NCBI GenBank assembly: GCA_030068145.1
Contig: JAPJBO010000007.1
Location: forward strand, 496,001 to 560,000
From: Diplonema papillatum
Lineage: Eukaryota; Euglenozoa; Diplonemea; Diplonemida; Diplonemidae
DNA length: 64,000 bases
Direction of reading: 5' to 3'
Both the position numbers and the translations under genes were made by a program. Every line of letters begins with the position of its first letter. Position 1 is the stretch's first letter. The notes beneath the pieces were generated by a model. The model saw nothing but the letters and a program-made list of their open reading frames with translations, was not told the origin of the DNA and ran no database searches. This document shows, one piece after another, positions 4,150 through 18,836 of the stretch.

Positions 4150-4685
4150 CTTTTTCAAAATTTAGCAAACTTGTTTGAGGCACCTTCGGTGCATCTGGGG
4201 GATCGACTGAAGACCTAAAGAGAGACACCGGTATTGGGCGACAAGCCCTGAGTGTTCGCAGTCCGCTTGCTTCAGAAGAGCAAAGATTGGAAGCGGGCGA
4301 TTCGGAAACTGAAGAATTCAGAGTTCGCAAATACCACAGGCAATTCTTCCTTCTTCCTTGTTCCCGATTCTCACCCACCCTGTCGTACCGAAGTAAAGGC
4401 CCGAGACCTCCTTTCTAGCAAACTTGTTTGAGCACCTTCGCGGGGTCGAGTGAGGACCTAAAGAGAGACAAGAGGTACTGGGCGACAAGCCCGCGAGTGT
4501 TTGAAGTCCACTTGCTTTAGAAGCAAGGTTGAAAGGGGACGATTCGGAAACTTAAGGATTCGGAATTGGAAAAATAGCACAGGCAATTCCTCCCTCTTCC
4601 TTGTTCCCGCTCGCTCCCCTCGATCGATTTTGCGGTAATCTCCCCAAGAGTAAAGGTCCGAACGAGACCTCCCTCTCTCTCTCTC
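4150..4685 (+). repeat. Tandem duplication, two units of about 260 bp
   Basis: TAGCAAACTTGTTTGAG begins both units (about 4163 and 4419). Both then share GACCTAAAGAGAGACA, GGGCGACAAGCCC, GATTCGGAAACT and CTTCCTTGTTCCCG. Divergence is moderate. No gene is included. Confidence 0.75.
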
Positions 4686-6814
4686 TCGCACTCGCTCTCT
4701 TTCTCTCCCTTTCCCGGAAAGACACTTCCTCCAACCGGTTTGCTGCACCGGCGGGAGCGCCCCCGACACTGGACCACTTTTTGTCCGGGGTTCTTCTCTC
4801 TTTCTCTCTCACACAGACCGGTTTTCCTTTCTCCGCTTCGTTGTTGTTGTCTGGTCACCTTCTGTTTGCCCTATTCGTTTCCAGCTCGTTACCTTCTATC
4901 TTCACTTCTCGCCCTTTCCCCGCTTCGTTTATTTGAAAAAAAAAAGAAAGCACAAGCTTCGCACGTGACTTGCGCTTAGTCTCAATAATTTTGTGTCCCG
5001 AACTGAGTCACCGAGTGACCTTCGAGGCTAAGGCGAGGCGGGAGAAGCTTAAGGGCCACGGTTCTATTTTTCAACACAGTTAAGGTGATGATACTTTCAC
5101 TCTGAATGATCCTGGGGGTCGAGGGGGTGAATTTAGCTATTCGCCAGACAAAGTAGTCTCGGGCCGACGACTGGAAAGCGTGCATGCTTCAGTCAATAGG
5201 ATCCATCGAGAGGGAACTGACAGCGCGATTTCGAAAGGTGTGGGGCTCACGCTGGTAGTCAGTGCGTCAGTGCGCGCTACATCGTGGGCAAGGAAGACAT
5301 ATCCTAGCGCCATGCGTGAATACTGAGCGCCGATTCAGGTGGGTCCTCAGCTGATCGTCAGACTGACGTGAAACGCGACCGAAACCAAACGGTACGCGGG
5401 CGAGAAGCAACCGAAGCATGACACAACGCGTGCAAAGAGGTAGTCGGTAGCAATTAGTGCAGTCGTCACAGATTGTTGCTGCATATAACAATGGATTCCC
5501 CCAGGCTGGTCATGTGGGCATTGCGTAGTCAAGTTGGGGTATTATGATTATGGAGTCGCCAGCTGTTATCCAGCTGAAGCACCTTCCAGCCTTGATCGCC
5601 GCCGATAAAATGAACCGCTTGCACCCTATGTTAATTCAGTTTCTTTGAGGCTTGCACGGTTTCCTCGTTGAAACAAGCACGCCGGATCATTGAGGACTCT
5701 CGTTGCTCAAACCTGGGTCCATTTGCTGTTGAGACTTTACGTGTGTGTGTGTACTTCGTCATTGCCAACATTCTGCGTGCGTGGGGTGTGCGCTGCGGGT
5801 TACAGCAGCAGCGTGGAACCTCGGCACGACTGACTCGCTGTCGCCTGTTCTGCACATCCCGGTCCATCCCCTCCTGGTAGACTGCAATGATGAGGTGAAA
5901 GTCTGAAGGTTAGAATGCAGAGAGGACTGCGTTGGTCTGACTCAGGTAACCACCTCTTCGTATGCACCACGGCTGGGTCGTGTAGTCGGCGCTTGCACCA
6001 TTCGCATCGTCTTTGCGCACGGTTAAGACAGGGCAATTCTAGAAATGGGTATACAGTGTACCGTGAACAGCGGAAGGCAATTCGGTGCAGTTTCAGGGGA
6101 CGGAGTGGACTAGCTTGGTACCGCTGAGCAAGCTCGCGGGGAGCGGCCCTCCGGCGTTGTGTAGCGGCTGCGCACCAGCGGATCCTGTTTTTTTTTTTTT
6201 TTTTTTTTTCACCTCTTCTTCTTTTTTCTTTTTGCTTTTTTCTTCTCTTTTCTTTCATCTTCGTATTCTTCTCTTTCTTGTGTTCTTTTCCTTCGCTCTT
6301 TCCACCCTTCCGGTGCTTCCTTCGTTTTCTTTTCGCTCACTCCTGTTTTCTGCGAAGCGTGTCTTCTTCTTCTCTTCACTCTTTTCTCTTCCTCGGAAAA
6401 CTCCTTTTTGCGCGCACGAATCGGTTGCGCATTTGTTGCGAAGAACGATACCGGTTGATCCCCTCCTTACCAGATAGACCGTAGTTTGCAGTGATGTATC
6501 GCGAAGTTTGAGGCTGGTATACAGAATGTCTGTTGCGATGGTCTGCGCTCGATGAGATTGTACCGTGTCGAACTTCAAGCGCTTGCACTCATTCGAATCA
6601 TCGTCTTCGCGCGGTCGCATGCGTCCTTTCAGTCCGCATTCCGGACTACTTTCACATGAGGCAATGCTCCCAAAATCCAAACCTGAAACGGTAACATACC
6701 CAGTTTCACTGGAGTGCCCGTTCCCGGCGAGCTACGAGGGAACGAACCTGTAAGAGTGCCAACGCTACTCTTTCAATAACGTACATATAAAAGGTGTAAC
6801 GGGTTAAGCCGGCA
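4686..6814. other. Intergenic; diverged direct repeat and pyrimidine-rich tract
   Basis: No gene was recognised. Two diverged stretches near 5885-6025 and 6488-6620 share GCGCTTGCAC..ATTCG and the order of flanking words, suggesting an old duplication of about 600 bp. Between them lies a T run (about 6188-6211) and a strongly T/C-biased strand to about 6400, which makes long but meaningless frames. Confidence 0.5.
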
Positions 6815-7419
6815 GCCGCGGCTTACCGACGCTAGCGGAACGGCGGCCGTCAGCCTGCTGCAAAAAGGGCCACCACGTGCCAGCGCCCCCGAAGCCAGCC
6901 CCCGCTAAGCCGAAGCCAACAACGCCGCGGAAGAAGGGCCGACAGAAGCCGACGACACCACCGCGCATGAAGAGGACGCGTCAAGCGTCCCCAAAGGCGG
7001 CCAAGATGGTGAAAAAGCACGCTCCGACCGAGCCGGCCCGAGCGACACCACCAAGGAAGGGGCAGAAAAGAGCCCGACTCCCGACACCACCGAATGACCC
7101 GGCGGGAAAACCCGGAAAAAAGCACGCGGCGCGAAAGCGCAACATTTCGAGAATGGAGCTGGATATCACCAGCCCTGCCACCTCGACTTCATCCTCATCC
7201 ATGTCAGGATCGCCCCCTCGAGCGACTGCTTCGGCAGGACAGCCGGCGCGAAAGCGCAACAAACGAAGAATGGAGCTGGATATCACCAGCCTATTAACAC
7301 CGTCCTCGTCCGCTTTGAGATCGTCCTCGGACGACGTATTCAAATAACCCTAGCCTATGACAAATGCAAGCTTACCCCTGTGGTACCTGCATTTCAAGTT
7401 CACACTGCTTAACGGTTTA
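6815..7419 (+). mobile_element. 5'-truncated LINE copy (ORF2 3' end plus 3' tail)
   Basis: The downstream half of a LINE related to the full-length copy next door. It enters ORF2 just before the last CCxxGHH zinc-type motif (CCKKGHH here, CCRRGHH at 14907-14930) and continues as a Lys/Pro-rich tail ending in DDVFK at 7347. The full-length ORF2 ends in DDVIR. A small indel near 6838 separates the upstream frame. The tail contains an internal duplication of a segment ending RMELDITS (about 7154 and 7271), absent from the full-length copy. The 3' UTR keeps the stem-loop (7362-7394) and ends ACTGCTTAACGG, directly against the SL exon of the next element. 5' truncation is usual for target-primed reverse transcription. 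Confidence 0.85.
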
Positions 7420-7456
7420 CCAACGATTTAAAAGCTACAGTTTCTGTACTTTATTG
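7420..7456 (+). other. Diplonemid spliced-leader exon at the LINE 5' boundary
   Basis: 37 nt match, from memory, the diplonemid SL exon. They start CCAACGATTTAAAAGC and end CAGTTTCTGTACTTTATTG, and this 3' half is shared with kinetoplastid SLs. The exon is placed exactly between the tail of the upstream LINE remnant and the 5' UTR of the full-length LINE. It is followed by GTGGCTTACC. Either the element is a reverse-transcribed copy of a trans-spliced mRNA that kept its SL cap exon, or it sits in an SL RNA gene. No complete SL RNA gene, with its Sm-type site and stems, was recognised downstream. Confidence 0.9.
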
Positions 7457-7622
7457 GTGGCTTACCGTGGTCGCCAGCAAGCCTCCCTCGGGTTTGTTAG
7501 GTATAAAACGGTACCGGACCCCTCCGGTGAAAGAAGCACACCAAGAGAGCGCGGAGAGAAAAATCAGTAAGAAGAAGAAAGGCAGAAAACAGACCCAGAA
7601 CGGAACGTCCCAGGGGAAAAAA

Positions 7623-9305
7623 ATGGAGGAGATCGAACAATACCTCCAGAAGGCACAGCGACTCGCTGAAGAGGCGGAAGACGAAGCGCAGATCAGCGCG
7701 GTGTTCGGAATCATCAAGGTCCTGCTCATCTTGACCGAGAAGGCCGGGCAGAAGCGAGCCCGAGAACGAGGGATGGCGACGCCCCAGACGAAATCGAAGC
7801 CGAAGACAACGACGAACCCGAAGGCCGGGCAGAAGCAGCCCGAGAAGGCCGAGCAGGAGCAGCCCGCGACGGCGGCGCCCATGAAACATACGACGGCGGC
7901 GCCCGCGGAACAACTGAAGCAAGCAGACCGCCAGGCGGACACCGCGACGAAAGAAGGAACCGCCCGGAAAGAGCCGCGAGCGAGCGGATGGAAAGAAGTG
8001 GTCGGAAGGAAGAAGCCGGCTGCCCCGAAGAACGCAGGGCTACGGACCGACGACTGGGGGATGAAGGCCATCGACGTGAAGAGCGTGCTGGAAGGGAATA
8101 CGCGGCGCGGAATCGTTGAGACGACGACGGAGGAAGGGAGAAAGGTCGTCGCCCACGCGAAGGAGCTGACCGACCTGGAAGCAGACGGCGTCGCCCTCGT
8201 GGTCATCACCCCGAAGCCGGCAGACGAGGAGCGCTCGACGTACGAGATCGTTTTCTCGACGGACGGGACGCCGTCCTACAGATACGTCACCCTGTGTGGA
8301 GACGCGCGGGCCGCCCAGGGGAGGATCGGGCTCAAGAAGACGGCCAACGAGACGCAGGTGCTGGTGTTCACTGCCCTGCACCGGGAGCTACCGAAGGAAA
8401 CCGTGACGCTGCTCACCGACAAGAAGAAGGGGGCCGGTGTGATCGACCGCATGTGTGCAACGGCGGCAAGGGACAACGGCGCCGAGATCGAGAAGCGCCA
8501 CCGATGGCGACACGCGGACCTGCCGGAGAGGAGCACCTGCATGGTGCGAGTGACGCTGGCGCAGGCCAACAAGCTCCTCGCCTGCAGCGGGAACGGAGGC
8601 CACTTCTGGTCAGCCCCCAGCTTCGCACGGGGTGGAGAAACGGACAGCGTCCTTTGGCTCGACAAGGCCGCCACCCTCGACGACGCACTCGCCCTGGCGG
8701 CCCTGCCTGGCACCAACGGGCTGGCTGCGGCGGTGACACGCCTGGGGGTCCGCTACACCGGCGACGAAGCACTGGAGGAGCTGCAGGAGGCGGCCGGCGA
8801 CCTCGTCGCCCCGCCACGATACGGCGGAGGGCTGGCGTACTTCGTCACCGGCGGGCGGAATGAGCACGCCGCGGACATCACAGCGGCGCTCAGAGATGTC
8901 GGCTGGAACGGGGCGCAGAGGAAGTCCTTCACGAAGGAAGGGAGGACGAGGCTGATCGTTGTGTCGCAGCAGCCGCCGCCAGCCACAGTAGTGTCGAGGA
9001 TGGGCCGCGACCCTATCTTCGTACGCCCGATCGCAAGGGGGGACGAACCGCGCGGCGGGGCGAAGGCGAACGTGTGGGAGGGGCGAATCCCCAGGGCCTC
9101 GCTGCCTAAGCAGGCAGTCAAAAGCGACGCGCCGATGGACCCGAAGGAAGGCCACATACACGTGTGGCAGGAGCCGGAGCGGAACAAGGGCACGCAGGAA
9201 TGCGAAGAGTGCGAAGCACCCCGGCAGAACGGGACGATGATGCGCACATGCTTCTGCGCTGCCCGCATCTGTGGTACGTGCTACACGGCCGCAAGCAAGA
9301 AGTGA
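7623..9305 (+). CDS. LINE ORF1 protein (putative RNA-binding, zinc motif)
   Basis: 560 codons from the first in-frame ATG, though the frame is open back to 7413. The N-terminal 150 residues are Lys/Ala/Glu-rich and include a short helical segment (EEIEQYLQKAQRLAEEAEDE). A globular middle follows (about 8000-9050). The C terminus has paired cysteines, CEECEAP then TCFCAARICGTC, a likely zinc-binding module. By position it should be the nucleic-acid chaperone or RNP protein of the element. No RRM or esterase signature was identified by eye. The frame ends in UGA followed by CUC, and the downstream frame continues without a stop, so readthrough or reinitiation into ORF2 is possible. Confidence 0.8.
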   Translation: MEEIEQYLQKAQRLAEEAEDEAQISAVFGIIKVLLILTEKAGQKRARERGMATPQTKSKPKTTTNPKAGQKQPEKAEQEQPATAAPMKHTTAAPAEQLKQADRQADTATKEGTARKEPRASGWKEVVGRKKPAAPKNAGLRTDDWGMKAIDVKSVLEGNTRRGIVETTTEEGRKVVAHAKELTDLEADGVALVVITPKPADEERSTYEIVFSTDGTPSYRYVTLCGDARAAQGRIGLKKTANETQVLVFTALHRELPKETVTLLTDKKKGAGVIDRMCATAARDNGAEIEKRHRWRHADLPERSTCMVRVTLAQANKLLACSGNGGHFWSAPSFARGGETDSVLWLDKAATLDDALALAALPGTNGLAAAVTRLGVRYTGDEALEELQEAAGDLVAPPRYGGGLAYFVTGGRNEHAADITAALRDVGWNGAQRKSFTKEGRTRLIVVSQQPPPATVVSRMGRDPIFVRPIARGDEPRGGAKANVWEGRIPRASLPKQAVKSDAPMDPKEGHIHVWQEPERNKGTQECEECEAPRQNGTMMRTCFCAARICGTCYTAASKK

Positions 9306-12300
9306 CTCGGGAACTCGACGCTGGTGTCACATGGGGCTGGTGAAGGCCAACTCCATGTTGACTGCGAGGCGGTCTGCTGGACCAGCCACGACCTCTCCGG
9401 TGCCCCTGCAACCGCGCCACCTGACGCGTCACCAAACCACCACGACCCGAAGACCTCGGAACCAGCCGTCGCCTGCCTGGCGCCACTGCGATCTGCCCTG
9501 CCCTCGTTCGGGCTGCCGAGTCCTAGCACCCCTGCCAGGCAGTTCGATCACGCAGAGACGGAAAAAGAGAACTCCTGCTCCTCTTCTTTTCCCCTCCCTC
9601 TCTCTCACGGCGCGCCTGGCCTCAATCGCCCGGGAGCGATACCCCGAGGGACCGGTTATGCGCACAAACAATCCCCCTACAATAGCCAGTGTGCCCGGCC
9701 AACTTGCAACGAGGGCCCCCCCGCCAGGGTGGAGGGACCCATCCCGGGGCTAAGTTTCCAGGCGATCCCTCGGGATCTTCTGGATAGACTGAGCCGAGCA
9801 CCCGAGCTCAACCCGGAAGCCCAATGGGGAAGGCTGGGGGGTGGACGCAGCAGGGAAACCCAGCAGTGGGGGCACGCCTATCGACTAGGTGAACCCCCGA
9901 TCAGACTGGAACGGGATATCCCCGAGGGGCCCCTGAAAGAAGCGGCGGATCTCATACGTGACCGCCTTGGGTGGGAACCGGACCAGTTGCTGGCCAACTG
10001 GTACCGGAGGGGAGTGGGGATCAACCCCCACAAAGACCAGAGAGAACTGGGTCCGAGGGTAGCGACCATATCGCTCTTGAGCGACACGGTCATGGAATGG
10101 GAGAGGGGGAGCCGGAAAGTGAGAACCCCTCTGCCGGTCGGCACACTGTGCCACATGGAAGGCGAGGCCAGGAACCTGTGGACACACGGGATTCGTCCCG
10201 ATGATGTCGCACGCGACCGGGTCTCGCTGACCTACAGGGCCGTGCGCGAGGCCGCCTCCCAAAGTTTGCAAGGCCGGGACACCCCGCAAGAAACTCCCAT
10301 ACCCCCCCCGCCCAGCCCTCAGGCATCCACTGCACCCCCCCAACATCAGTCCAGCCCCGCGCCACGGACACTTTTGCTTCATCACCAAAGAACTCTACAA
10401 TCAATCAAAGAATCAGCAAGACAGCGGCTGATAACCGCGGGGGACGTCGAACAAAACCCTGGTCCCGGCCGCGCGGAGATGAGGTTCGCGACGTTAAACG
10501 TAACCAACCTACTACAGTATCTCCCAGCGGCCGACGCGGTGGAAGCGGATCTTCTCTGCTGCCAGGAGGTGACACTCCTTCCGTGCAAACGGGTGCAGGC
10601 GGAGGAATACCTGCGGAAATGGTGCTGCCACTGGGGTCTGCCACCACCCGGAAGACTCTGTAGGAACTCCGGTAGTCGCTCGACGATGAACGCCGCGAAC
10701 GGAGGGCTCTCCACTCTAGTACTGAGACCGATACCGGCGTACGATACGATGACGGCGCTCTCGCACGCAGCAATACGGTCCCCGGACCGAGTGAGCCATA
10801 CGGTAGTAGCAACAGGGGCCGGCAACACGTTCGTGCACGTGTTCAATGTCTACTGCCCTTCCGGAAACGGGAGGGCGGAGAGCGAGGAGCGTGAGGACAT
10901 GCTGGAGAAGATCCTCTTCGCAGCGGCGGATAGCCTCGGTGACGTCCCCATAATGGTGATGGGTGACCTGAACACAGAAGAAGACCGGTCCCCTGTACTG
11001 CGGAAGGCACTAAGGAATGGGTGGTCCGACGCAGCGGAACTGCACCATGCGCGTACCGGTGACACACCACCACCACCGACCTTTACTAGCGCCCGGACAT
11101 CGGGCACGAGGATCGACCGCATACTCCTCAACCGAATAACGACGGGAGCTTTCCGCCAATGCGTCACCACCGCGGTGAACGTGCCGGGACACCGGCTCGT
11201 GACAATGACCCTGGACATTGCGGCGCTGCGCCAAATCGTGTGGCGATTTAAAGTACCGCGGGAAATCTCTACGGAGGGGGGACCCAAGTGGGGCCTCTCG
11301 GACACAGAAGCTTACAGGGAAGCCGTACAGAGACTGGCCAACTCCGATTTCGCAGAACGGCTGGCAGCACAGCGAGTGGAAGAGGCCTGGCTCGAGTGGT
11401 CACGAGTCAGTGAGCAGTACTTGCAGGATGCCTTCGGAATCCCTGCGGAAGAAAGGGGAAGAAGTACCGGCCGGGGGATAAAGACGTCACCTAAAAGAGT
11501 CTGCATCACGGCAAGCACTGCGAGCGACGGGTCGGGGGCGGCGAACAGCAGACAGCTACGGCTCCGGAAGGCCATCCACAGGATGGAACGCATCTGCAGC
11601 TACCTTGCGCAACGGCGCGGGCCGGAGGCAGTTCCGCATGAGGTATCCCGTTGCTGGCAGAACAGCAGGCGGCTGGCACAGGCGTGCATGAAAGATGGCC
11701 AAGGGACAGAAGGATTCCCGGATCATGAGGAGGCGAAGCAGCTTCTCACGGCATTGCGGGAAGAGACGAGCAGGCTCGGAAAGGAAGGATCGGCGGCCAG
11801 GTTTACGAAATACCGAGACAAGCTGAACGAGAGGGCCGATGCGAGCAGACGATGTCTGACAACCATCTGCGCCGGACGCGCTGAGCCGTCGGGGGTGTTG
11901 CGAAAGGGGGCGGGAGTGACTGCAAATGTTGACGAGATGGACGAGGTGCTGAACACTGCGTGGGACCCTATCCTGCGTAAGTACAAGGACGGGCCAGAGC
12001 CGGAGTACGAGCCGTTTCGGGATCGGTTCCGGGATCACATCGGCCCACATATGATGGAAGCCGGAACAATCACGGGGGAGGAGCTGCGAATTCTGCTGAG
12101 GAAGAAGCCGAAGAAAAGCGCGTCAGGGGTGGATGGCTGGCGTATGGCTGAACTGCGGGAGTTGCCGCTCCCCCTGCTGAATGCACTTGCGGACGTCATG
12201 AACCTGGTCGAAGCAACTGGAGACTGGCCGGCAAGCATGACAACTGCGCTGGTGTCGATGGTGCCGAAGGATGAGAGTCAAGACCCGCTGCACACAAGAC

Positions 12301-15300
12301 CGATAACCGTCACATCCGCCGTGTACCGCCTATGGGCCTGCCGCAGGCTGGCGGACATAGTACTGTGGCAAGAGGAATGGATCGAAGAAGGACAGAAAGG
12401 CTTTCGACCAGGTCACCGGATCGAGGACGTCTTGATGGAAATTGGGCTCGAGATGGAGGACGCCTTGTTAGAAGGGGAGCCGCTCTACGGTGTGGCGCTG
12501 GACTTCCGGAAATGCTTCGACATGGTCCCACGAGAGATAGTACTGCGCTTAGCCGAGGACTTAGGATTGCACAATCGGGTTCTCAAGCCGCTGAGGGCTA
12601 TCTACAGACTGCTCGCGAGACGCTTCAAGCTACCATTAGGGGTGGGCAGGGAGTTCAGTGTGACCAACGGTATCCTTCAAGGGTGCCCTGTATCCGTCAT
12701 ACTCATCAATGCCCTGCTGTCGGTAGTGATGAAAGCGGTCAAGAAAGAAGCGGAGGGTGTGAGTCCAAAGTCATACGCGGACGACGCCACACTGCTGTCC
12801 AGGCTGTCGGAGGCCGCCCTGCAAAAGGGAGTGGACGTAGTAGACGAGTTCTGCACACTCACCGGGATGGAGCTAAACCTCCAGAAGACGGTCGCGTTCT
12901 CGACGAGACGTAGGCATCAGTCGACTCTCAAACTCCGCAGCGTGGATGCGCTGCTGCGGTTTAGCAAATCCGTCAAGTGCCTCGGGGTCCTAGTCTCGAC
13001 GGCGAAGAATAGGACGGAAAGGTCCGACTCGGAGAGGGTGGAGAAGGCGGCTGCCCTGGCGGAAGGCCTCCGCCATGCGCCGTTCCGGTACGAAAAGCGG
13101 GTCCGGATTGTGCAGTCGAATGTGCTACCGGCGGCGCTGTCAGGCTGCTCTTTCGCGCCGGTATCGAAGGTGGCGATGAAACGGCTGACGACGTCGGTGA
13201 TGGGACTGATCTGGGGTGGATCCAACCCGAAGCGCGCGAGGGAGATGGTCCTAAACTTTCAGGAGAAGGGCCACCTGACGGATCCCGGTACATGCCTAGC
13301 ATATAGGGTGACGACAGCGTTTTACGCGGCGTGCGAGAGGTTGCCACGACTGCTGCCTCTGATGGAGAGCATCCGGGGAAGATACGCCGAGGGGGACCTA
13401 CCCCTGGGGCCAGTTGGACTGGCGATGAGGAGCATGGGGGAGTGTGGACACGTATGGGGACCCGGGCCCCTGTCTCGCACGCTGAGGAATGGTGCAACAT
13501 ATGACCCGTTAGCCTCGGCACCTTCGAAGAGGGGACATGAAGTTAGGGCGGACTTGAGGGCGAAGACGTGGTCCCGACTGGTGGCGAGGCGGCCGGGATT
13601 TGAGGGCATACAGAGAGCCGACCTGGAGCGGACGAACACCTTCTGGAGGATGCGTGAATGTCCCGCGCACACCGCGAGGCTTATACGTGTAGCGTTGGCG
13701 GGGGGGGTGAACACGGCTGAGTACACGTCGCGGATGAGGCAGGCCGGAGCTGAGCCGCAGGCGCCCAGCTGCAAGCACTGTGGAAGCGGCGACACCGAGG
13801 ACGAGAAACACGTATTCTGGGACTGCGGAGCGTACTCGCACATACGGCGACGAGAGGCACATGCCGAGCTGATGGCAGCCAACCGGGCCGACTGGCCCAG
13901 ATGCACGCTGGAACACGGAGTGGTAGTACCCGAGAATGCCCAATTCTCGAGGCGGCTCCAGGAGATGTTGGCTGAAATCCTTGCGGAACGGGCTGGGCTC
14001 GAAGCACGTGGCTGGGTGGCCAGGAACCCCACGACCCCCTGGTCGAGAGCGAATGCGATGCCTGCCGAGAAATTTGACCACCCCTTCGCGCGGATTGCCC
14101 CGGCATGGACGTGGGAGCGGAACAAGACCTGGGGACTACCGACGTTTTATGCGTTGGTAGCGTGGCTGTCGGACATGCAATGGACCGAGAACGGGCAGGC
14201 GTCAATGCTGGAGCTTGCGATCGACTTTGAACTCTTCTCGGGCCTCAGCATGCCGCTGCACGGGAATGCGCCGAAGGGGGTGAGAGAACGGGGAAACGTC
14301 CTGCGCTGCATGATGAGCGCGTTGGACAAGCTGGCGGCACAGCAAGGGCTGGGAAGCTGCATGAGAGGAGAGAGGGTGTGCCCGACGACGTCGCTGTCGT
14401 TCATGGGCATCACGGGGATATCGGGTATACGGCCCAGGCCACGCTTTCGCGAGGCACACACGGGGACGATACTTGAGGAACAAGTGAAAGGAAGCGATGT
14501 AGGGACGCAGTGCCCGGCGTACCCTGACTGGGCGATCGGGAGAGCGGCGAGGTGGGCCCTGCCTGCCCCACCACAACTGCACCCAGACCCCGTGCATATG
14601 CCGGGTGTCGATATAGAGAAGGCACTCGTCACGTGCGCGACCCATCACAAAGGGAAGTGTGAGGCGTGCAGAGCACTCGTCCGAAGGGACGTTCCCACGG
14701 TAGAGATGTGCTGCCGGCACCATCACCACGCGAACGATGGGCAGCCGATCGCGGTGTGCACAGAGCACAGCACGACGAAGTGCGGCGAGTGCAAGACGGC
14801 GGCGGCGTGTTGCCGCAGCGGGCATCATGCCTGCCGCACGCATGGCAGAGGAACCTGCCAAGAGTGCAAGAGGCTCCCTACGCTGACGCAGAGGCGACCG
14901 GCGGCATGTTGCCGCCGCGGCCACCACCAGTCCAACGAACCGAACGTCCCGTCAACCCCCGGACGCAACAAGAAGAAGAGGCCCTCCTCACCCACCCAGG
15001 TGGGCGTACAACGGGGAACGCCAGTTGGAAAGCGAGCGGCGCAAGCGCCGCCCGCGGCAACGAAAAAGGAGACGGCGACGACCGGACGGGCGACCAAAAG
15101 GCCGCCACCAACGCCAGGAACCAGCGAACGACCAGCGCTGAAGAAAAGGGTGCTAGGCACCCCGAAGGAAGGCCCGATCGCCGGCCGCAAGCGGAAGAAG
15201 ACGAAGGCGACCACCCCCGACTCAGGGGTGCATCGAAGGAAGAAGAAGGTTCCGAGGGCAAGCAGCTCTCAGAAACGACCGGGGACCACGGGCACGCCAA

Positions 15301-15446
15301 TGCCCTCGAAAGTGAAAAACGGGCACACGAGCCCGCCCTCGTATTCGCCGACTCAGTCTCTGGAATCACAAGAAAGCCAAACCCCGCTAGCTCCACAAAT
15401 GCTCGATCTTGACGACGCAATGGCAGGTGACGACGTCATCCGATAA
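9306..15446 (+). CDS. LINE ORF2 polyprotein: AlkB, 2A, AP endonuclease, reverse transcriptase
   Basis: The frame runs 2,046 codons from just after the ORF1 UGA to TAA; the first possible non-AUG start is GTG at 9324. Domains in order: AlkB-like 2OG-Fe(II) dioxygenase (about 9840-10245) with HxD at 10029-10037, distal His at 10185 and Arg pair at 10218 and 10236; 2A skipping site DVEQNPGP (10443-10466); AP endonuclease (about 10483-11230) with LNVTN, CQE, FNVYCP, GDLN, RIDRILLNR and GHR; reverse transcriptase (about 12090-13010) with DFRKCFD, GILQGCPVS and SYADD; CCHC motif CKHCGSGDTEDEKHVFWDC at about 13770-13826; a Cys/His-rich block (14630-14935); a Lys/Arg/Pro-rich tail to the stop. No RNase H motif was seen. 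The first in-frame AUG lies inside the AlkB domain (VMEWER), so translation must enter by readthrough, reinitiation or a non-AUG start. 2A-bearing LINEs are known in trypanosomes and animals. Confidence 0.93.
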   Translation, partial: LGNSTLVSHGAGEGQLHVDCEAVCWTSHDLSGAPATAPPDASPNHHDPKTSEPAVACLAPLRSALPSFGLPSPSTPARQFDHAETEKENSCSSSFPLPLSHGAPGLNRPGAIPRGTGYAHKQSPYNSQCARPTCNEGPPARVEGPIPGLSFQAIPRDLLDRLSRAPELNPEAQWGRLGGGRSRETQQWGHAYRLGEPPIRLERDIPEGPLKEAADLIRDRLGWEPDQLLANWYRRGVGINPHKDQRELGPRVATISLLSDTVMEWERGSRKVRTPLPVGTLCHMEGEARNLWTHGIRPDDVARDRVSLTYRAVREAASQSLQGRDTPQETPIPPPPSPQASTAPPQHQSSPAPRTLLLHHQRTLQSIKESARQRLITAGDVEQNPGPGRAEMRFATLNVTNLLQYLPAADAVEADLLCCQEVTLLPCKRVQAEEYLRKWCCHWGLPPPGRLCRNSGSRSTMNAANGGLSTLVLRPIPAYDTMTALSHAAIRSPDRVSHTVVATGAGNTFVHVFNVYCPSGNGRAESEEREDMLEKILFAAADSLGDVPIMVMGDLNTEEDRSPVLRKALRNGWSDAAELHHARTGDTPPPPTFTSARTSGTRIDRILLNRITTGAFRQCVTTAVNVPGHRLVTMTLDIAALRQIVWRFKVPREISTEGGPKWGLSDTEAYREAVQRLANSDFAERLAAQRVEEAWLEWSRVSEQYLQDAFGIPAEERGRSTGRGIKTSPKRVCITASTASDGSGAANSRQLRLRKAIHRMERICSYLAQRRGPEAVPHEVSRCWQNSRRLAQACMKDGQGTEGFPDHEEAKQLLTALREETSRLGKEGSAARFTKYRDKLNERADASRRCLTTICAGRAEPSGVLRKGAGVTANVDEMDEVLNTAWDPILRKYKDGPEPEYEPFRDRFRDHIGPHMMEAGTITGEELRILLRKKPKKSASGVDGWRMAELRELPLPLLNALADVMNLVEATGDWPASMTTALVSMVPKDESQDPLHTRPITVTSAVYRLWACRRLADIVLWQEEWIEEGQKGFRPGHRIEDVLMEIGLEMEDALLEGEPLYGVALDFRKCFDMVPREIVLRLAEDLGLHNRVLKPLRAIYRLLARRFKLPLGVGREFSVTNGILQGCPVSVILINALLSVVMKAVKKEAEGVSPKSYADDATLLSRLSEAALQKGVDVVDEFCTLTGMELNLQKTVAFSTRRRHQSTLKLRSVDALLRFSKSVKCLGVLVSTAKNRTERSDSERVEKAAALAEGLRHAPFRYEKRVRIVQSNVLPAALSGCSFAPVSKVAMKRLTTSVMGLIWGGSNPKRAREMVLNFQEKGHLTDPGTCLAYRVTTAFYAACERLPRLLPLMESIRGRYAEGDLPLGPVGLAMRSMGECGHVWGPGPLSRTLRNGATYDPLASAPSKRGHEVRADLRAKTWSRLVARRPGFEGIQRADLERTNTFWRMRECPAHTARLIRVALAGGVNTAEYTSRMRQAGAEPQAPSCKHCGSGDTEDEKHVFWDCGAYSHIRRREAHAELMAANRADWPRCTLEHGVVVPENAQFSRRLQEMLAEILAERAGLEARGWVARNPTTPWSRANAMPAEKFDHPFARIAPAWTWERNKTWGLPTFYALVAWLSDMQWTENGQASMLELAIDFELFSGLSMPLHGNAPKGVRERGNVLRCMMSALDKLAAQQGLGSCMRGERVCPTTSLSFMGITGISGIRPRPRFREAHTGTILEEQVKGSDVGTQCPAYPDWAIGRAARWALPAPPQLHPDPVHMPGVDIEKALVTCATHHKGKCEACRALVRRDVPTVEMCCRHHHHANDGQPIAVCTEHSTTKCGECKTAAACCRSGHHACRTHGRGTCQECKRLPTLTQRRPAACCRRGHHQSNEPNVPSTPGRNKKKRPSSPTQVGVQRGTPVGKRAAQAPPAATKKETATTGRATKRPPPTPGTSERPALKKRVLGTPKEGPIAGRKRKKTKATTPDSGVHRRKKKVPRASSSQKRPGTTGTPMPSKVKNGHTSPPSYSPTQSLESQESQTPLAPQMLDLDDAMAGDDVIR
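10443..10466 (+). other. 2A ribosome-skipping site in LINE ORF2
   Basis: DVEQNPGP matches the 2A consensus D(V/I)ExNPGP exactly and is preceded by LITAG, a usual upstream context. Skipping between the last Gly and Pro would release the AlkB part, with anything upstream, from the endonuclease-RT part. The endonuclease domain begins only about six residues later (MRFATLNV), which fits a functional separator. Confidence 0.9.
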
Positions 15447-15461
15447 CCTGACTTTCAAGGC

Positions 15462-15492
15462 AGTGCATGCTAATCCATGTGGTTCATGTACT
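15462..15492 (+). promoter_or_regulatory. LINE 3' UTR stem-loop
   Basis: AGTGCATG (15462-15469) pairs with CATGTACT (15485-15492) around a loop containing AATCCATGTGGTT. Homologous hairpins occur at 7362-7394, 57051-57081, 57379-57407 and 60584-60614. Their stem sequences differ but pairing is kept, so this is the likely RNA structure recognised by the element's reverse transcriptase. Confidence 0.75.
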
Positions 15493-15531
15493 TAAAAGAA
15501 CTCAATGCTTAACGGCTTATCACGTGGGCGG

Positions 15532-16053
15532 CCCTGAGATTACCCCCTCAAGGGACACCACTTTATCTTTAGCCATACTTCAACCTGCTTTGCATACTTG
15601 TTACAGCCGAAAAGGAACGTTGGCAGCGGTCTAACCTGAACGCCAGGTAAAATCGCACTAACTGTATTGTACTCCACCCGGGGGTTTCTTCCGCGCACCT
15701 TCGTGTCCACTACTCAGGTTCCCAGACAGCGGGGTACTGCGACAACAGCGTGATTGCGAAACAACAAACACATAAAACAAGAACAACCCGCCGTCTCACG
15801 TAGCCCTTACTTGCTCGAAGAGAACCCGTTTAGCAAAGGTCACACGGAGACGCTAAACCCCCGGAATCTCAAGCGAACTCTAACTCTAAACTCTAAAACC
15901 AGGAGGCGGAGCAGGAGAAAACGCGTGGGAACGGGGAAGGAGCCGTCCCCCCCTCCCCCCCCCTCCTCTCCACACCCCCCCTCCTTTTCGGCTTCCCCCG
16001 ACCTTGTCTTCGTCTCCGACGCTCCCGGGCAGGCGGAGCGGGCGATCTGAGCA
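15532..16053 (+). promoter_or_regulatory. 5' region of the PH-like gene, with conserved upstream block
   Basis: Positions 15786-15890 are about three-quarters identical, by eye, to 55641-55743 upstream of the Lys-rich gene. Shared words include TAGCCCTT, AGAGAACCC, GGTCACACGG and TCAAGCGAACT. Shorter copies lie at about 38033-38093 and 58010-58050. From 15945 a strong C/T tract leads to AG at 16031-16032, 21 nt before the ATG, a good candidate trans-splice acceptor. Confidence 0.5.
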
Positions 16054-18836
16054 ATGGCGAAGCCGGTCTTCCGCGCGGTTGACACCGGGCTAGCGGTCCT
16101 GATGCAGCCCCCGGAGCCGCGATTTCAAGACAAATTCGGCTCCATGTTCAGCCAGCCGTCGGGGCAGTCGATCATCCACTACATGCACCCCGTGTACAAG
16201 ATCAGCAGCAAGGGGAAGCGGCAAAGCCGGATGCTGTTGGTGTCCAACAAGGCGATCTACCTCACGCAGATGGATGCCTTCGTGAAGCGGTGCGTTCCGA
16301 TCAGGGACGTCGAGCAGATTCTGCTCGTCCCCGGGAGCTGCTGCATCGGGTTGCGCGTGCCGACGCAGTATGACGTGCTTTTCGAGATAGCGGCAGATTC
16401 GAAGAGTATGAACGCGCCCGCGGAGATCCACTACCTGTTGAACATCTTGAAGGTGATCTACCAGAAGGAAAACGGGTTCTCGCCCGCCGCCGTCGAAAAG
16501 TGGGTCGTCGAAGTGATGGGGGTGAAGAAGAAGGCGAAGGACTTCGACCCGCCGCTGAGCATGGCGCGGCCGAAGGGCTTCAAGCTGACGTCTCTGAGCA
16601 TCCCGACCATCCCTGCCTCCGACGTCGCGCGGCTCGTGCAGCTGCAGCAGCCGCAGAGCCGGCCGCCGCTGCCAGACATCGCGCCGCTGCTGCCCAGCCC
16701 GCGGCTCGACCGGCGCGAAAACTCACCGCCGCCGCCGCCGACGCTCCCGCCGACGCCGTCCCGCGAGCAGCCGGACCCCCGGCGGGTCGAAGAGGAGCAC
16801 CCGCTGCTGGTCAAGAACTCGTCCATCGAGCCTTCCTCCGCGCGCCGGTCGAGAACCCACGCTTCCCCGACGCTCTCTTCCCGTCAGCCTTCGCCGACCA
16901 TCCTCCACACGCCCCGCCTCAGCCGGCCCGACACGGTTGAACTCGCGACCCAGTACGAGACCCCCGCAGGGTCCCCCCAACTCCCTCCGAGCAGCAGCTA
17001 CCAGCGCCGGCTGTCGAGCCTTCCGAACCGGGAGCCGACCCCTCAGCTCCAGCGCGCCCAGTCCCCTGTGCAAGCTGCGGCGGCGTCGCCGATCGTCTCG
17101 CCGGCGCAGAGCAGGCCGGGGGCAGGGACCCGGCCCCCGCACAAACAGCACCACCACGCGCCCCTCCCGCCCGCCGTCGGAGAGCCGCTCCCCGAAGACG
17201 ACGATTTCATAGGCGTGTCGGTGTCGCCCGACGGCCACTCCGCCGCCGGCGGCGAAACGCCGTCGTACGCCCGGAACCCGCAAGCCGCGTCGAAGCACTT
17301 CTACAACGACGCAGCGGCGTCGCAGGCCGCCCAGCCCCGCCCCGCGTACAGCCACCAGCTGCTGCCTGCCGGCAGCGCGCTTTCTCCGACCGGCGGCCTC
17401 AACATCCCCCCGGGTCTGACGTCATCCGACGTTGCCCTCCTGACCCCTTCCGAGGAGTACTACACCCGCCAGCGCACCGCGCAAACGACCAGCAAGCAGG
17501 GCCTCGGCGCCGCGGCCATCAGCCACATGAACGCGATCGCCGCCGCCACCGTGGCCAACGCGCCCCTCCCCCCCGGGTACGCCCACGCCCCGATGCAAAG
17601 CACCGCCGTCGCCCTGGGGCTCCCGCCGCCGCCTGGCGTGTCAGCGTCGGAGGTCCCCCTTCGGCCGCCGGTGCCTCCCCCGGGCGTGGGGTACGACTCC
17701 ATATTAAGCGGGGGGTCCTCCTTTTTGCACCACCCGCCCGTCTCGGTGCAAGACCCCGACGCCGGCGGCTTCCCCGCAGGGGGAAGTTCGGCGGTCACGA
17801 AGCTGGAGCAGGACGTGCTCTCGCTGCAGCTCGAGATTCAAAAGATGTCGATGGAGAAGGACGCCGAAATCGCGGCGCTCCGCCGGCAGGTCTCCCACCA
17901 CGAGGGCGGGGGGGGGGCCGCGCACGGGAGGATGGGAGCGCAGCTGCAGGAGCTTCGGCGGAACCACACGCAGGGCCAGTCGGAGCTCCACCGTATCCTC
18001 TCGCAGATCCCCGGAGGCGATTTGCTGGCGCCCAGCCCGGGCGTGCCGCTGCGCTCGGGGCTTGGCGCGGCGTCGCCGGGGGGGGCTGGCGGGCATCGGC
18101 GCCGGCAGCATTCGCCGCAGGGCGGCCCCGGGACACCCCGCGTCACGTCGCCCGCCGCCCACGACGTGAGCGAGCCGAGCCCAGCGGGGGGACATCCCTC
18201 GCAAGCCCTCGAAGCCAGCGACGGGCTCGCAGCCCTCGGCGACGACGAGATGTACCGGCGGCTCACCCAGGCGCAGGTCGCCAGCATCGAGCACCGGCGC
18301 AAGCAGATCGAGGAGGCGCAGCAGGAGGTCAAAAACATGGTCGCCTGCGGGAGATACGCCGAAAACTCGCTCGAAATCGTCGAGCTCCAGCGGCAGCTCG
18401 ACGCGCTGATCAAAGACCTCGCGTACGAGGCGAAAGGCTACGAGCTGGGGCTCCTGCTGGACGCTGAATCCGGCAAAGAAGCCGAAGACCCCGCCGAGGA
18501 CCCCTTCCGGTATCCCTCGGAGCCCCGGGACGACCCCGAGAACTTCAACTCCAGGTTCTACTCGCAGCCGCCGCAGCACGCCGCGGGCTACGCGCAGGCG
18601 TACAATTTGTACCCGCGGTACCCCTCGCAGCCGCCGTCCGGGCAGGGGCACGCGCTGCGCCCGTTGAACGCGAACACGCACCCACGGGGAAGAGCGACCC
18701 GCCGGAGCACCAGCGGGGGCTCGATGAAGTCCGGCCACGCTTCGTCGCGCGGCGTGGCGGGAGGGTACCCTCCCAACCTCGAAGCGATGTACAAGCAGTA
18801 CTACGACCAGTACTACTCGTACTACTACGGCCCGTA

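Follow-up and report, generated by a model that had tools for sequence, protein, structure and literature searches.

What is an AlkB-type dioxygenase doing in the polyprotein of a retrotransposon? The question is raised by a 64,000-nucleotide stretch of the Diplonema papillatum genome (the window: assembly GCA_030068145.1, contig JAPJBO010000007.1, positions 496,001 to 560,000 of the forward strand, numbered here from its first letter). It holds a copy of a long interspersed nuclear element (LINE) in which a single open reading frame (ORF) combines a domain resembling the AlkB-type 2-oxoglutarate (2OG)-Fe(II) dioxygenases, a 2A (StopGo) motif, an apurinic/apyrimidinic endonuclease (APE), and a reverse transcriptase (RT). 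Based on its sequence, we interpret the element as an APE-type LINE whose second frame, ORF2, appears to have acquired an AlkB dioxygenase that looks catalytically competent.

An AlkB-type domain in the ORF2 frame of a LINE

The ORF2 frame (9306 to 15446, plus strand) is open from stop to stop over 2046 codons and runs from an N-terminal linker through AlkB, 2A, APE, and RT to a C-terminal region. An earlier note on this DNA had given the same limits and the same order of domains, and it was right on both counts. Pfam recognized, in order, 2OG-FeII_Oxy_2 (4.8e-12), Exo_endo_phos (1.6e-8), and RVT_1 (1.4e-20), all above their curated cut-offs, and the AlkB motifs lie where the note had placed them. 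The linker (9306 to 9743) has no in-frame Met, the first in ORF2 being residue 263, and leads into the AlkB domain (9744 to 10256; residues 147 to 317 of the frame), which matched PF13532 with 46.9 bits against a cut-off of 31.2, and with 51.8 bits when the domain was searched alone. Between the AlkB and APE domains sits the 2A motif ITAGDVEQNPGP (ITAGDVEQNPG/P, 10431 to 10466, with NPGP at 10455), which is presumably active. The APE (10479 to 11225; PF03372) is N-terminal to the RT (12288 to 12989; PF00078; YADD at 12774) within one ORF, the arrangement by which APE-type LINEs are recognized. Among solved chains, the best match of the RT was human L1 ORF2p (3.1e-21), followed by R2. A search of positions 4500 to 18000 for direct repeats gave no long terminal repeats (LTRs) among the 20 families listed of at least 60.

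The active site of the AlkB domain appears to be intact. With roles assigned from the description of ALKBH5 (PMC9289625), alignments place N231 and Y233, on the 2OG side, at 9996 and 10002, and the first two Fe ligands, H242xD244, at 10029 and 10035, so that N-W-Y to H-K-D spans 9996 to 10037. The distal Fe-ligand His of WTHGI (H294) is at 10185 to 10187, and the arginine pair of the RxxxxxR type (R305 and R311, at 10218 and 10236) falls within R-V-S-L-T-Y-R (10218 to 10238). The earlier note had let its reading depend on these residues being kept in other copies, and they are invariant in all 11 aligned copies of the LINE, the window included. The same residues are invariant across eight AlkB domains chosen from the LINE and from the two other element types described below, a second retroelement and Helitrons. 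A profile built from these eight matched human ALKBH8 (1.5e-15) and many other AlkB chains in the PDB, which upholds the assignment at the level of sequence profiles. ALKBH8 (PDB 3thp) was also the best solved match for the window (3.3e-7), for one Helitron (3.1e-9), and for one domain of the second retroelement (2.7e-10), with E. coli AlkB and ALKBH2/3 chains among the further matches. ALKBH8 is a tRNA wobble-uridine hydroxylase, and we know of no activity of it as an eraser of N6-methyladenosine (m6A). Identity to it is low, and its full-length form carries RRM and methyltransferase parts, whereas Pfam reported neither in the element proteins scanned.

The domain is under purifying selection between subfamilies of the LINE over the longer time scale, in keeping with what the earlier note had proposed as a check. 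We estimated omega, the ratio of nonsynonymous to synonymous change, by the Nei-Gojobori method with intervals from codon bootstrapping. (Loci read elsewhere in the genome bear the prefix L, and contigs the prefix C.) Between the window and L009, which represents the most diverged subfamily read, omega was 0.20 (0.11-0.33) for AlkB and 0.15 (0.07-0.29) for its core, compared with 0.15 for APE and 0.06 for RT; between L009 and L015 it was 0.16 (0.10-0.26) for AlkB and 0.16 for APE. Across diverged subfamilies, therefore, AlkB is held about as strictly as APE and less strictly than RT. The N-terminal linker is loosely constrained, with omega of 0.88 (0.53-1.61) in the first pair, 0.57 (0.29-0.99) in the second, and 0.57 to 0.88 over residues 1 to 130 in three subfamily pairs; the linker between AlkB and 2A had 0.50 (0.20-0.98) between the window and L009.

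The polyprotein recurs throughout the genome. The genome searches covered the 271-Mb assembly of 2910 contigs, and match counts are lower bounds. A search with PF13532, in which host genes are included, scored 150 of 250 candidates, all above the cut-off and two with an internal TAA. Twenty loci chosen from that list for spread comprised 11 of this LINE, two of the second retroelement, five of Helitron type (Pfam was run on three), and two that were neither. The order AlkB-2A-APE-RT in a single frame, as the earlier note had described it for the window, was found in 11/11 further LINE loci, AlkB being partial in L024, and the 2A motif reads D[VI]EQNPGP in every one of them (12/12 with the window). 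A 346-residue query that starts in the N-terminal linker, crosses AlkB and 2A, and ends within APE yielded 735 candidates, of which 117 were scored, the window included; every scored match spans the AlkB core, 2A, and the start of APE, with internal TAG codons in four. Candidate RTs numbered 4330 in the genome, of which 150 were scored. The possibility that AlkB is confined to the copy in the window is excluded by the 11 other loci, and a chance motif is excluded by residue conservation, selection, and copy number. Scans of viral, bacterial, and archaeal contig collections found no relatives beyond this genome; since each used two short peptide patterns and covered only these three kinds of sequence, they do not show absence.

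Related AlkB domains in Helitrons and a second retroelement

The AlkB domain of the LINE has relatives in two other kinds of mobile element. Helitron polyproteins open with AlkB, and Pfam found AlkB together with Helitron_like_N in L018 (C930), L020 (C1735), and L022 (C65), and PIF1 in L020 only, the Helitron frames being cut by the limits of the loci. The second retroelement, read in L010 (C641:600-10599, minus strand) and L011, has an N-terminal AlkB followed by an OTU domain, at 20.5 bits just below the cut-off of 23.3, and RVT_1. A further member, L040 (C364:100-6300, minus strand), was read in its 3' part, which includes a UCH domain (4.1e-8); its position fits a single frame of 4088 residues on C364 with an AlkB match near the start. 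The frames of this OTU-RT element are single and reach 4088 residues. By eye, its RT has YLDD, and L040 contains a possible restriction-like endonuclease stretch.

A search with a Helitron AlkB returned 282 candidates; the 150 listed, sorted by identity and match length, comprised eight of Helitron type, 22 of OTU-RT type, and 120 of LINE type, with no internal stops. Helitron AlkBs share 41-43% identity with that of the window, and omega was 0.22 between two Helitron lineages, a rough figure at a synonymous divergence (dS) of 1.14, and 0.17 between L022 and L039. The OTU-RT AlkB is much closer to the window, at 75% protein identity and 80.5% DNA identity over 9740 to 10251. Beyond AlkB, similarity between OTU-RT element and LINE in the stretches read was limited to about 100 nucleotides at the 5' end, in L010. 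That the AlkB domains match while nearly nothing else does points to domain exchange.

The element AlkBs share LGG..R.T.Q.G and other residues. In a tree, eight of them fell on one side of a branch and seven host AlkBs on the other (85/94; 88% of bootstrap trees), with the caution that the host branches are long. "Host" here means that no mobile-element domain was seen; L007 was left out, the tree does not include PF13532 places such as those on C541, C129, C32, C1931, C948, C341, C864, and C1283, and genes split by introns may have been missed. A close host paralogue may be the source of the element domain; the seven host AlkBs in the tree are distant, on the long branches just noted. Another ALKBH8-like gene in the genome, L028 (6.7e-23), likewise lies on a long branch apart from the element AlkBs. 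These comparisons suggest that one AlkB lineage is common to the LINE, the OTU-RT-UCH retroelement, and the Helitrons of this genome. Related AlkBs in otherwise unrelated mobile elements, in turn, suggest that the enzyme helps mobile DNA to cope with chemical marks carried by the RNA or DNA of the elements themselves.

The ORF1-ORF2 junction and the possible role of the enzyme

How AlkB would be made depends on what precedes it. ORF1 (7467 to 9305, plus strand; 612 residues from the first GTG) matched no family in the Pfam scan and has a Cys-rich end right before its stop. At the junction (TGA CTC, 9303 to 9308, plus strand), ORF2 continues in the same frame, which makes this a candidate site of programmed readthrough. 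We surveyed 18 distinct places of the LINE, 12 of which retain the junction; four of the others are 5'-truncated (L024, L029, L030, and L031), one is at a locus edge (L025), and one runs into a preceding copy (L026). A single in-frame TGA followed by CT was found at all 12 junctions (CTC in seven, CTA in three, and CTG in two), and in 11 of the 12 copies no Met precedes the active site of AlkB. Upstream of the TGA, the ORF1 frame is open for 531 to 698 codons in seven junction copies and to the locus edge in two more. Right before the stop, L012 and L013 deviate in length from the window by 15 nucleotides, with frame and TGA-CTC unchanged. Given the in-frame TGA-CT and the near-consistent lack of a Met, AlkB is probably a readthrough extension of the ORF1 protein (ORF1p), ended by 2A. 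In the literature, UGA CUA (G) is given as a context of weak termination (PMC4207609). The junction, along with the related AlkBs in Helitrons and the OTU-RT element, goes beyond the reading in the earlier note.

We consider it fairly probable that the LINE makes an ORF1p-AlkB protein by readthrough, that 2A releases it, and that the enzyme, tethered to the LINE ribonucleoprotein (RNP), strips methyl marks from the bases of the LINE RNA or hydroxylates them. Ribosomes would mostly produce ORF1p, and a fraction would continue past the UGA-CU stop into the linker and AlkB. This minor fusion product would be freed at the 2A glycine, and APE-RT would then be made as a separate protein starting from the 2A proline. 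Being fused to ORF1p, AlkB would be tethered to the RNP, where it would most likely act on methylated bases of the LINE RNA, and marks that halt reverse transcription or flag the RNA would then not end the LINE cycle. Readthrough, 2A activity, enzyme activity, RNA substrate, and benefit to the LINE are what we infer from sequence, and the function offered in the earlier note, that the enzyme demethylates or repairs LINE RNA or cDNA or counters host modification, is of the same kind. A wider proposal is evenly balanced in our judgment: an element-specific AlkB would move by domain exchange among the three unrelated element classes, serving each of them as an anti-modification module, and the LINE would use it as a sub-stoichiometric, RNP-borne eraser made by readthrough of ORF1p and released by 2A.

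Several observations weigh against this account. The best solved match is ALKBH8 and not ALKBH5, and Helitrons also carry AlkB, so a role confined to RNA would leave some host elements uncovered. The TGA of the window is followed by CTC, whereas the described motif has CTA, and no conserved RNA structure was seen 3' of the TGA in the five copies folded. When 120 nucleotides from the TGA were folded in the window and in four more copies, z scores lay between -0.47 and -2.26 and the folds were unlike each other, while a control stretch before the stop gave -2.63; we therefore claim no conserved stimulating structure. The open stretch of ORF1 ahead of the TGA is short in L015, L043, and L044, at 111, 225, and 41 codons, respectively, and these copies are therefore taken as broken in ORF1; L015 also carries an early Met, at codon 17 of ORF2. 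Finally, selection is less evident in some comparisons: omega for AlkB was 0.32 (0.14-0.63) between the window and L015, with a core value of 0.16 whose interval reaches 0.93; the window and L014 differ by five nonsynonymous and no synonymous changes; and values of 0.67 (window and L025) and 0.51 (L009 and L024) give a weak selection signal or none.

Other explanations start from the same evidence. Single-stranded DNA, through which Helitrons move, occurs in all three element types. Together with the related AlkBs in Helitrons and the E. coli AlkB and ALKBH2/3 chains among the PDB matches, this would suit direct-reversal repair (of 1-methyladenine, 3-methylcytosine, and the like) during target-primed reverse transcription, with single-stranded cDNA or displaced DNA as the substrate in place of RNA. 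We regard this as possible but doubtful: in each of the three element classes the solved chain nearest by sequence is that of ALKBH8, an RNA enzyme, and the NCBIfam equivalog for alkb, TIGR00568, reached 15-22 bits where its cut-off is 231. The ALKBH8 match in LINE, OTU-RT element, and Helitrons alike could instead mean that AlkB modifies host tRNA or mRNA by ALKBH8-like hydroxylation, or acts on silencing-linked marks, and so shifts translation or silencing in the host to the advantage of the element, and 2A would indeed separate AlkB from RT. With low identity to ALKBH8 and none of its accessory parts found by Pfam in the element proteins scanned, we think this improbable. That AlkB is a noncatalytic relic or a nucleic acid-binding passenger is very hard to reconcile with metal and 2OG residues that are invariant in all eight chosen domains and with omega near 0.2 between LINE subfamilies as well as between the two Helitron lineages, although a Met right behind 2A, at residue 392, indicates that APE-RT could be made without AlkB.

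Readthrough itself has a competitor. ORF2 could be translated from a spliced-leader (SL) mRNA of its own, through initiation at a non-AUG codon, or through reinitiation. Genes for SL RNA are present in D. papillatum (PMC10161547), and the early Met in L015 would fit such a scheme; the other 11 junction copies have no Met ahead of the active site, however, and the frame and TGA-CT are kept in all 12. Separate translation of ORF2 is, we think, unlikely, and readthrough from ORF1 more probable.

Precedents, significance, and further features of the locus

2A motifs are familiar from other APE-type non-LTR retrotransposons, namely the trypanosomatid L1Tc/ingi and sea urchin elements. There, as here, 2A stands ahead of APE-RT, but we know of no AlkB domain in them, whereas in the Diplonema LINE both AlkB and an ORF1 set off by TGA precede the motif. 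The closest precedent for the enzyme is found in Ty3/Gypsy elements of the orchid Phalaenopsis, described as encoding an ALKBH5-like ORF with m6A RNA demethylase activity in vitro (PMC9289625). Both are retrotransposons with a fixed AlkB domain in which HxD..H, R..R, and N.Y are conserved. According to that description, the orchid elements have LTRs, carry AlkB in a separate ORF2, and nest among ALKBH5 homologues (PMC9289625); the element reported here is non-LTR, has AlkB upstream of 2A-APE-RT, and is closest among solved structures to ALKBH8. AlkB domains have also long been known in replicase polyproteins of the Flexiviridae and other plant RNA viruses, where OTU may occur in the same region (PMC544882). 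These too are polyproteins of RNA-copying elements, but of positive-strand RNA viruses with an RNA-dependent RNA polymerase and no 2A-APE-RT. The AlkB and OTU-like domains of the second retroelement are a notable parallel.

An AlkB-bearing retroelement was thus already known. Among the open-license PMC papers that our searches listed, we saw no AlkB-bearing LINE or Helitron, and work elsewhere on mobile-element 2OG dioxygenases may have been missed. As far as searched, the AlkB-2A-APE-RT LINE and the relatedness of AlkBs across LINE, OTU-RT element, and Helitrons appear to be new. Within the same scope, neither a LINE nor a Helitron family had been seen with AlkB before, and the LINE version occurs in more than 100 places and is under selection between subfamilies. 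These elements pose a testable question: do transposons erase modifications of their own nucleic acids to evade host control or stalled reverse transcription? Diplonema is transformable, and gene replacement is mentioned (PMC10161547). The same paper takes a dozen AlkB homologues to indicate regulation through methylation and counts about 2500 mobile-element gene models, and its passages on these subjects do not connect the two (PMC10161547). Our results bear on its remark about host methylation, as far more AlkB domains of this genome lie in mobile elements.

Other features of the LINE deserve mention. The full-length copy in the window extends approximately from 7443 to 15531 (plus strand), as judged by similarity limits of 7443 to 15531 against L012 and 7453 to 15531 against L013. 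At the 3' end, similarity stops at 15532 in L014 and L016, at 15590 in L017, and at 15513 in L024. The copy begins right behind the tail of another. In the window (6815 to 7415 and 15496 to 15531) and in L012, L017, and L024, copies and truncated tails adjoin AACTCAATGCTTAACGG-like pieces of the 3' ends of other copies, as if the LINE preferred its own 3' region for insertion. L026 (C769:20000-29999, minus strand) contains two head-to-tail copies that share an open frame extending over at least 2787 codons.

ORF1 is strongly divergent between subfamilies (the window, L009, L016, and L027), the best stretch of L016 matching the window at 1.3e-18, and the Cys-rich end ahead of the TGA recurs across them; together, these are a hint of ORF1 exchange. 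In the APE, the stretches TLN, QE, and GDLN are identical across the 11 aligned copies. The last APE motif usually has the form SDH; at window position 11187 (ORF2 residue 628), all 11 have PGHRLV in its place, which may affect target choice or activity. Near the C terminus of ORF2 (14700 to 15000), the Cys/His clusters CCRHHHH, CCRSGHH, and CCRRGHH recur, and the Pfam scan found no family above cut-off in that region.

Apart from mobile elements, 27 of the 47 scored 5S genes lie on contig C1335, for the most part at intervals of about 1.24 kb that are broken by two longer gaps, and the one unit read there consists of 5S, U2, and 5S, all on one strand. In D. papillatum, U2, 5S, and SL RNA genes have been described as alternating in runs of up to 27 repeats, an arrangement called exceptional (PMC10161547).

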